Assembly: GCF_007005445.1 (NCBI RefSeq)
Contig: NZ_CP041387.1
Location: 4,913,501-4,977,500, forward strand
Length of the DNA: 64,000 bases
From: Rhodopseudomonas palustris
Lineage (GTDB): Bacteria > Pseudomonadota > Alphaproteobacteria > Rhizobiales > Xanthobacteraceae
Direction: 5' to 3'
Shown piece by piece: positions 49,942 through 62,995 of the stretch. Position numbers and translations under genes: made by a program. A model generated the notes under the pieces. The model was not told the DNA's origin and did no database searches. It saw only the letters and a program-made list of their open reading frames with translations. The stretch's first letter is position 1. Every line of letters begins with the position of its first letter.

Positions 49942-49995
49942 AATCCATGGCGCGCATTCTGCTCGGCATCGTTGTGCCGAGCAGAGTGTGATGCC

Positions 49996-51681
49996 ATGAG
50001 ACGAATCCTTGTTACCGCAGCCGCGCTTGCGACGGTGATCTCGCCGGCCGCAGCGGCCGACATGCCGGGCTTTCCTCCGCTCATGCCTGCTGCGCCGGTC
50101 CAGTGGAACTGGACCGGGCTGTATTGGGGCGTCCATGTCGGCGGCAGCTTCGGCTCGTCGAGCTTCAGCGATCCCGCCGGCCCCGGTCTGTACGGCGGCA
50201 ACGTCCGCAGCCCGGCGGCACTCGCCGGCATCCAGGTCGGTTACAATTACCAGCCGAACGCGAATTGGCTGATCGGCGTCGAGGCCGATCTCAGCTCGAT
50301 GAACGCCAAGGGCACCGACACCTGCATGGCGTCGTCGGGGTTGTTCATTTCGTCCAATTGTCGCGTCCGTCAGGATGCGCTGGCGACGCTGACCGGTCGT
50401 GCCGGCCTGGTCACCGGCCGCGGCGGCCGGACGCTGCTCTATGCCAAAGCCGGCGCCGCCTTCCTCAGCGAGCGGCTCGATATTACCGTCGGCTATCCGC
50501 TCGGTCATTCGACCGATGCGGATAACGGCCGCTGGGGCTGGACCGTCGGCGCCGGCATCGAACGGGCGCTGGCGCCGGCCTGGTCGGTGAAGCTCGAATA
50601 CGGCTACGCCGATTTCGGCAGCCGCGACATGGCGACGCCATCGAGCTTCCGGCTGGTGCCGGGCGTCGGCTATTTCCCCACCCCGCAGGGCACCAGCAAG
50701 GTCGAGCAGGACCTGCACGCCGTGAAGGTCGGTCTCAATCTCAAATTCGGCGGCGATGTCGACGCGCGATTCGACGACTATCATCTGCGCGGCAGCCAGG
50801 CCGGGGTCGATGTCGTCGAGCGCGGCGCGGTCGAGGTCGGCGGCCGGGTCTGGTACAGTTCGGGACGCTTCCAGAAGGATCTCGGCGCGACGGTCGATCA
50901 GGGCGCTCAGAACTTCCTGATCTCGCGGCTGACCTATCAAAGCACCGCCGCATCGGGCGAAGCCTTCGGCCGGGTCGATGGTCCCTACGACACGTTCCTC
51001 AAGGGCTTCGCCGGCGGCGGCACCCTGCTGAGCGGGCACATGAACGACGAGGACTGGATCGCCACCGACGGCATCCCCTACTCGAACACGTTGTCGGACC
51101 CGGTCAAGGGTAGCATCGCCTATGCGACGCTCGATGTCGGCTACGATCTGCTGCGCGGGCCGGGGTACAAGTTCGGCGGCTTCGTCGGCTACAATTATTA
51201 TCGCGAGAACAAGTCGGCCTATGGCTGCGTTCAGACGGCGGGCGCCACGTCGCTGATCTGCGCGCAGCCGATTTCGAACAGCGTTCTCGCCATGACCGAA
51301 AACAACACCTGGCATTCGCTGCGGGTCGGATTCAACGGCGAACTCGGACTAGGCCGCGGGCTGAAGCTCTCCGCCGACGCCGCCTATCTGCCCTATCTGA
51401 AGATGTTCGGAACCGACAACCACGTGCTGCGTACCGATGTCACCGATACGGTTTCGCCGGAGCGGGGAACCGGGCAGGGCGTGCAGCTCGAGGCGATCCT
51501 GTCGTATCAGGTCACGAATGCGTTCAGCGTCGGCGCCGGCGCGCGGTATTGGGCGATGTGGGCGACCACTAACGCTTACACCAACATCTTCGGCACCGAG
51601 TGTCCGTGCCAGACGCTGCCGACGCGCACCGAACGATACGGAACTTTCCTGCAGGCGGCCTACAAATTCGACGGCCTCTAA
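49996..51681 (+). CDS. Outer-membrane protein: Opa/OmpA-like barrel fused to an omptin-like barrel
   Basis: This 561-residue protein has a signal peptide (about 1-19, ending SPAAAAD). Its first half (about 30-255) matches the rhizobial Omp25-type eight-stranded barrel: NWTGLYWGVHVGGSFG, GIQVGYNYQPNANWLIGVEADL, and WSVKLEYGYADFG ending VKVGLNLKF. The second half (about 275-561) has the spacing of an omptin protease barrel: Asp351-x-Asp353-Trp354 (GHMNDEDW) and Asp474-x-His476 (GTDNH). In OmpT these are Asp83/Asp85 and Asp210/His212. The protein ends in Phe-Asp-Gly-Leu. The function could be surface proteolysis. The ATG at 49996 is preferred. Confidence 0.85.
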   Translation: MRRILVTAAALATVISPAAAADMPGFPPLMPAAPVQWNWTGLYWGVHVGGSFGSSSFSDPAGPGLYGGNVRSPAALAGIQVGYNYQPNANWLIGVEADLSSMNAKGTDTCMASSGLFISSNCRVRQDALATLTGRAGLVTGRGGRTLLYAKAGAAFLSERLDITVGYPLGHSTDADNGRWGWTVGAGIERALAPAWSVKLEYGYADFGSRDMATPSSFRLVPGVGYFPTPQGTSKVEQDLHAVKVGLNLKFGGDVDARFDDYHLRGSQAGVDVVERGAVEVGGRVWYSSGRFQKDLGATVDQGAQNFLISRLTYQSTAASGEAFGRVDGPYDTFLKGFAGGGTLLSGHMNDEDWIATDGIPYSNTLSDPVKGSIAYATLDVGYDLLRGPGYKFGGFVGYNYYRENKSAYGCVQTAGATSLICAQPISNSVLAMTENNTWHSLRVGFNGELGLGRGLKLSADAAYLPYLKMFGTDNHVLRTDVTDTVSPERGTGQGVQLEAILSYQVTNAFSVGAGARYWAMWATTNAYTNIFGTECPCQTLPTRTERYGTFLQAAYKFDGL

Positions 51682-62550: not shown

Positions 62551-62671
62551 GGGATCAACCTCGGCTGACGTCTGTGGCACGTCACAGCGAACGAGGTCTC
62601 ACCGGCTTGTTCGGAAGCGGTGAAGACAATGCCTGCAATTCCCGGCCGGCAACTTCGCGTGTGACCACGAA

Positions 62672-62862
62672 TGACGGCAGGTCTCCTGGCTCGCGGTTGA
62701 TCTTCCGTCGCCTTCCCAGGACCGAGGTTCCCAGTGGCATCCGACGAAAGACGATCCGCTTACAGTTGCGGGAACAGCTACGGCCTAGAACGCGAAAGTG
62801 TCTGCGTCCGCACCGTATTCCCTTTTCATCCCCTTTCGGGAAACCGTCGCCTCCATCTAGGA
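62672..62862 (-). promoter_or_regulatory. Cobalamin riboswitch upstream of btuB
   Basis: On the minus strand the segment has the conserved cobalamin riboswitch blocks in order: GAAAGGGGATGAAAAGGGAA near 62830, the B12 box with GCTGTTCCCGCAACTGTAAG (62765-62784), and the closing GAGCCAGGAGACCTGCC (about 62676-62692). It lies about 120 bases before the btuB ATG. It should lower btuB expression when adenosylcobalamin or another cobalamin is plentiful. Confidence 0.95.
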
Positions 62863-62995
62863 GTCCCGGGATTCGCGAGTCAATTCGCCGATGGCGGCGA
62901 ACAGGCCCAATCGTGGTCGGATTGTGACCGGCTGTGACTTGCGTGTAACAGCCGGGTCTGTACACCTCGCACGATAGCGGATGCGGCAGGTGGCG

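Follow-up and report, generated by a model that had tools for sequence, protein, structure and literature searches.

Omptins have been described chiefly in enteric bacteria, where they are single barrels and require lipopolysaccharide. According to PMC11410778, Asp83, Asp85, Asp210 and His212 have catalytic roles in OmpT, the S1 pocket is lined by Glu27 and Asp208, and the S1' pocket is lined by Asp97. Two-barrel proteins appear in parts of the survey by Reddy and Saier (2016) (PMC4827864), where TC 1.B.72.2.3 is a 577-residue alphaproteobacterial fusion of BRP and PomS/T barrels with 'limited' omptin similarity, MnoP of Bradyrhizobium (TC 1.B.4.2.2, 675 aa) is listed as a two-barrel protein, and the PomS/T proteins are handled as pore-forming. 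In excerpts of other papers, Bradyrhizobium bll1872 is termed 'omptin family' (PMC6515984) and is NifA-regulated and strongly induced in planta (PMC8125078; also a table row of PMC4926349), and ompT1 is a gene of Mesorhizobium symbiosis islands (PMC7643969). Here we analyze a gene of Rhodopseudomonas palustris at positions 49996..51681 (+) of a 64,000-nucleotide stretch of contig NZ_CP041387.1, the whole of which is called the window below. To judge from its sequence, this gene probably encodes a surface-exposed peptidase that stands on a branch apart from the classical omptins and is chained to an Omp25-like barrel.

The two-barrel architecture is not new, because TC 1.B.72.2.3 very probably represents the family of the window protein. 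Matched to that family by its description in the source, it likewise carries a PomS/T barrel behind one of the Omp25 type (BRP); it differs in being filed among pore-forming families, and catalytic residues go unmentioned in the abstract, the passages and section 17 of PMC4827864. MnoP, as listed in the same source, is alike in having an Omp25-type barrel fused ahead of a second barrel, but the latter is an OprB-type pore and not an omptin. The bll1872 product could also belong to the window family, as a candidate matched by description and not by sequence comparison. Within the open-licence literature of PubMed Central, three elements are newly added here: the completeness of the catalytic set, the fold of the omptin type, and a probably independent fusion in reverse order. 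The reading frame of the gene was confirmed, with an ATG at 49996, a stop codon at 51679-51681 and a product of 561 aa, and its parts are as follows.

49996..51681, + strand: whole gene, two-barrel outer-membrane protein, 561 aa
49996..50058, + strand: signal peptide, residues 1-21, by-eye reading of the sequence; in the structural model, helix at 3-12 and low predicted local distance difference test (pLDDT) scores at 1-30
50116..50745, + strand: N-terminal 8-strand Omp25/OmpA-like barrel, residues 41-250
50746..50826, + strand: linker, residues 251-277, with conserved YxLRG motif, expected to be periplasmic; pLDDT below 50 at 258-274
50827..51672, + strand: C-terminal 10-strand omptin-fold barrel, residues 278-559
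51046..51057, + strand: D351-E352-D353-W354, on OmpT Asp83-Gln84-Asp85-Trp86, end of strand 3
51415..51423, + strand: D474-N475-H476, on OmpT Asp210-Glu211-His212, end of strand 7
49944..50001, + strand: predicted leader RNA hairpin, start codon within the stem; fold z-score -7.1 against 200 shuffles

In the model, the C-terminal half forms an outer-membrane barrel of omptin shape with 10 strands, which is 15% identical to OmpT (E. coli K-12, PDB 1i78; PF01278) across the structural alignment. The four catalytic sites of OmpT (Asp83, Asp85, Asp210, and His212) are in register with D351, D353, D474 and H476, and the catalytic spacing is 123 residues compared to 127 in OmpT. The first-pass annotation of this gene had pointed out both dyads with this spacing, and they are indeed present in the sequence; the meeting of these residues at the barrel rim, which it expected, is borne out at the level of strand and register, since they end strands 3 and 7 of the ten in the OmpT register. 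Its remark that the relationship would not be obvious from simple similarity is right for the window sequence: BLASTP of the whole protein against OmpT gave 23 bits (E=0.013), and phmmer with the C-terminal half against the PDB sequences found no solved relative at E<=10. The profile search that it suggested had a divided outcome, as the C-terminal half matches the Pfam family Omptin (PF01278) at E=1.1e-4 but scores 21.9 bits, and the whole protein 20.4 bits, under the curated cut-off of 22.6; the match of the C-terminal half to the NCBIfam omptin model is weak (E 0.0057). A six-frame search of the same genome with PF01278 at E<=1 missed the window gene itself and reported only a paralogue, at 2087649-2088161. 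Within the family, PF01278 is matched by 37 of 49 members at E<=0.01 (best 3.3e-13). At the same threshold 12 of the 49 match Pom, the Protochlamydia outer membrane protein (PF17251, TC 1.B.72); the window protein gives no match at this level. The window family differs from the classical omptins in forming a separate branch with support of 100/100, and from OmpT in that its chain includes an additional barrel. As the Pfam omptin cut-off is not reached, we would file the window protein as a separate branch that presumably works like an omptin, and not as a classical member.

When homologues were sought with residues 257-561 as the query, 989 of 6026 candidate proteins matched at E<=0.001; the top 120, together with the window protein, make up a set of 121 rows. 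All four catalytic residues are kept in each of the 121 rows, in which identity to the C-terminal half goes down to 60%, as they are in 24 of 24 rows of another set. D351, E352, D353, W354, D474, and H476 are invariant in all rows of a 49-row set (P0011 and P0012 being present without the first half), at identities down to 36%. The conservation of the catalytic set exceeds chance: for positions drawn at random, the probability that four named ones all fall among the 34 invariant of 305 is 1.3e-4. Across 22 full-length rows, mean column identity is 0.70 in the first half (residues 23-250), with 20% of columns invariant, and 0.76 in the second half (257-561), with 29% invariant. Among open-frame pieces from the collected loci, with duplicates and the window itself counted, 62 of 85 keep all four sites; 19 of the other 23 are without at least one site through a gap, and the remainder, along with some of the gapped pieces, carry substitutions.

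The positions that determine substrate choice in OmpT present a different picture from the catalytic ones. The S1 residue Asp208 corresponds to Gly472 of the window protein, which is Gly in 119 and Ser in 2 of the 121 rows; this position also varies among the aligned omptins, with no Asp in L004, L005 and L008. The loop 2 motif SxHPDT aligns with YSNTLS, such that Ser99 falls on S363 and His101 on T365, and alignment confidence in the region of OmpT Glu27 is zero. Compared to OmpT, the window family has thus replaced Asp208 by Gly and SxHPDT by YSNTLS, and it has gained conserved loop cysteines, C411 and C422, which are kept in all 121 rows whereas OmpT has no cysteine. The cutting machinery thus looks kept and the substrate-reading pocket looks rebuilt. 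Cleavage between basic residues by the window protein is doubtful, because Asp208 is Gly472 and SxHPDT is changed, and its specificity is probably different from that of OmpT.

Several observations weigh against an active peptidase. The activity itself is argued from invariance. The window sequence is 0.7 (C-terminal half) to 2.2 bits (whole protein) short of the Pfam omptin cut-off, and its fully supported branch (100/100) is long and drew a long-branch warning from the tree program; with such a branch leading from the classical omptins, function need not be kept. The pocket adds to this list, with Asp208 on Gly/Ser, the His of SxHPDT on T365, and the Glu27 position aligned without confidence, as do the PomS/T proteins, to which the second barrel has been likened and which are treated as pore-forming in the relevant parts of PMC4827864. 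Some relatives have lost part of the catalytic set or lack a full alignment over it. In L073, ET replaces DxD (NEQTL compared to NDRDF in L070 from the same genus). A pattern search of L064 (an uncultured member of Rhizobiales), L065 and L066 (Devosia) found no equivalent catalytic pair, the sites lying mostly outside the alignment, and of these three only L064 and L066 have D at position 351. L073 and L064-L066 are possibly pseudoenzymes that keep the barrel. Broken or partial frames also carry changes at the catalytic sites: position 351 is N in L075 and L080 pieces, E or A/I appear in L076-L078, L081 and L082, and L060 has Leu at its frame break.

The rival explanation that survives best holds that the second barrel is an inactive descendant of the omptin fold, serving as a pore or adhesin like PomS/T or OpcA, and that a structural role accounts for the retention of the four residues. 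We regard it as unlikely, although not to be set aside lightly, given that all four residues are retained throughout the 121-row set and the more divergent 49-row set; a structural reason for this invariance is hard to sustain because a relative folds without them. According to another explanation, to which we assign a low probability, the active site is live but does not cut between basic residues, its target being a different peptide bond or some other ester or amide bond at the surface. The replacement of Asp208 and SxHPDT, with Gly472 in nearly all rows, favors this idea, as do C411 and C422, which suggest a rebuilt mouth of the barrel; nevertheless, the variability of Asp208 in the aligned omptins takes away from the first of these arguments, and there is no direct evidence for another substrate. 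An omptin-like surface peptidase remains our preferred reading of the gene.

The N-terminal half matches PF13505 at E=1.7e-18 with 67.9 bits, above the cut-off of 28.7, and forms in the model an 8-strand barrel of the Omp25/Omp31 type (PF13505, BRP). In the full-length model, residues 37-252 match OmpA and residues 276-558 match OmpT, each as a complete known barrel, and approximately 27 residues predicted to be disordered separate the 8-strand barrel (41-250) from the 10-strand barrel (278-559). The alternative that the whole chain is a single 18-strand barrel, for which the sum of the strand counts speaks, is highly improbable, as the two halves of the model match complete barrels separately, the linker between them is disordered, and both one-barrel relatives and a reverse-order fusion are known. 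The YxLRG motif of the linker (50779-50793, residues 262-266) stands in disordered surroundings and is well conserved: across 24 rows, L264 never varies, and Y262, R265 and G266 are each kept in at least 90%.

In the proposed mechanism, the precursor, whose signal peptide was read from the sequence, would be exported by Sec, and the BAM machinery would fold two separate outer-membrane barrels with the linker left in the periplasm, this layout being predicted by the model and the pathway presumed. On the outward-facing rim of the omptin-type barrel, the D351/D353 pair and the D474-H476 dyad would activate water and cleave peptides or surface proteins, as in OmpT; we infer catalysis at this rim because the catalytic residues are invariant. 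The first barrel would most likely hold the enzyme in the membrane, beside lipopolysaccharide or a substrate-binding surface. The partnership of the two barrels may be useful, because Phreatobacter has the same combination with the order reversed.

In this reverse-order fusion, which was found at L008 1321-3036, L095 1351-3045 and L096 1327-3039, the omptin barrel comes first and the PF13505 barrel second, and the omptin half scores 131-156 bits against PF01278. Among 12 genomes of one family, 3 carry these reverse fusions and another has the forward type (L097). In a 30-row tree, L008, L095 and L096 group in a single clade (98/94) on the classical-omptin side, separated from the forward family by a split with 100/100 support; the classical rows as a group have 48/50. 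A search with the L008 product, in which 7995 candidates sharing most words were scored, gave 10 proteins at E<=1e-20 covering 89-98% of it, two of them named as Phreatobacter; one of these, P0123, is named 'omptin family outer membrane protease' and is identical to the L008 product over 97% of the latter. P0123/L008 and the window protein are alike in combining an omptin and a PF13505 barrel in one chain and in keeping D-x-D and D-x-H, but they differ in the order of the barrels and in the omptin half, which is of the classical type in Phreatobacter (131 bits to PF01278). Therefore, omptin and Omp25-type barrels have probably been joined twice, independently and in opposite orders. More tentatively, and as a view that we hold possible but less than even, the family may represent a widespread alphaproteobacterial branch of active, non-dibasic omptin-type enzymes with two barrels, in which an Omp25-like partner serves in lipopolysaccharide binding, anchoring or substrate capture, an arrangement that arose twice in opposite orders. 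If this diverged branch and a classical omptin were indeed joined independently to the same kind of barrel, this would offer a natural experiment on the effect of a neighboring barrel on an outer-membrane enzyme, and it would settle the mixed annotation of the family members.

Family members were found at 54 loci in genome contigs of Rhodopseudomonas, Tardiphaga, Bradyrhizobium, Afipia, Jiella, Methyloligella, Hyphomicrobium, Devosia and others of the order. The fusion is present in Rhodopseudomonas, Bradyrhizobium, Tardiphaga, Hyphomicrobium, Jiella and others, whereas the Devosia loci are single-barrel. Thus, of the first-pass interpretation, the two barrels in one chain (Omp25-like and omptin-type) and the catalytic residues in register stand, whereas the supposed rarity in a free-living phototroph does not, as numerous genera of the order, among them Bradyrhizobium, have members of the family. 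In genome surveys, PF01278 was matched in 11 of 150 genomes of the order and the family profile in 12 of 398 of the phylum. On plasmids, 48 records match the protein in some part, and five of these cover at least 80% of it (one from Tardiphaga, two from Bradyrhizobium barranii, and two from Methylobacterium). Among the 120 listed homologues, the nearest named ones are Rhodopseudomonas proteins with 81-91% identity in the C-terminal half; many have a precomputed PF13505 match and some a PF01278 match, and their names are mixed, including porin family protein, outer membrane beta-barrel protein, and opacity protein-like surface antigen, with or without 'outer membrane protease'. The family tree comprises 54 family rows, of which 48 are fused and 6 single-barrel, plus 4 classical rows. 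Many soil and plant-associated bacteria keep this diverged branch with its complete catalytic set, joined to another barrel in 48 of the 54 family rows of the tree. Left out were 17 of 71 candidate rows that were broken, cut, duplicate, partial within the first barrel, too distant, or from the window, whose locus L067 is represented by near orthologues; L077, L078, L081 and L082 were dropped earlier for short matches. The single-barrel rows are nearest to the classical side as drawn, except L074, which is placed unsurely on a long branch within the fused rows, and the program warned of long branches meeting. The forward fusion requires two changes in this tree and forms one clade in 39% of bootstrap trees of the 30-row tree; a single early gain of the first barrel is compatible with these results. 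Two proteins considered as single-barrel members were rejected: the P0011 product begins partway through the final strand of the N-terminal barrel and its locus, L019, begins at contig base 1, so that it is cut, and P0012 sits on a 1273-base contig.

The genome of the window encodes further relatives of these barrels. The paralogue mentioned above (G000:C1:2087436-2088290; L001, the same as L079) has an open frame that includes, of the first barrel, only profile positions 76-231, with the earlier part of that barrel in another reading frame. In addition, there are a 730-residue MnoP-like frame combining OMP_b-brl and OprB (L090/L094, G000:C1:3082621-3084597) and a tandem of two OMP_b-brl barrels of 481 aa (L089 853-2295 (-)).

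The 58 bases at 49944-50001, within 102 folded bases (z -7.1), are predicted to form a long hairpin, with the start codon inside it. Values of z <= -3 were obtained for 10 of 50 upstream regions, namely the window, eight of nine Rhodopseudomonas orthologues, and Bradyrhizobium L025; the ninth orthologue, L018 (-2.3), and the other 39 regions lie above. Stem sequences differ between orthologues, e.g., CTGCTC/GAGCAG compared to CTGGTC/GACCAG. As MAFFT leader alignments were poor on the 3' arm, stem pairs were taken from the individual fold of every sequence, in which they are paired by construction, and do not constitute covariation evidence. These predictions suggest that an RNA structure is conserved here and could hold translation back. 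With regard to NifA-type control, as described for bll1872, a search for sigma-54 promoters in the 400 bases upstream of the fused genes gave no convincing site in the Bradyrhizobium rows; the lowest shuffle fractions (0.005) belong to L017 and L044 from other genera, and TGT-N10-ACA occurs upstream in four Bradyrhizobium rows (L052, L056, L057 and L061).

To judge from the translations, the neighbors of the window gene are htpG and a downstream gene whose product is probably an ABC-type substrate-binding protein. BLASTP comparison with the open frames of the collected loci places the htpG neighbor in 11 loci and the downstream one in 12; loci with shared neighbors are L067 (the window's own, in both lists), L033, and Rhodopseudomonas L013-L021 and L041, with L019 lacking its upstream side in this comparison. 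Elsewhere in the window, a cobalamin riboswitch was detected at 62659-62863 (-) with 117.6 bits.
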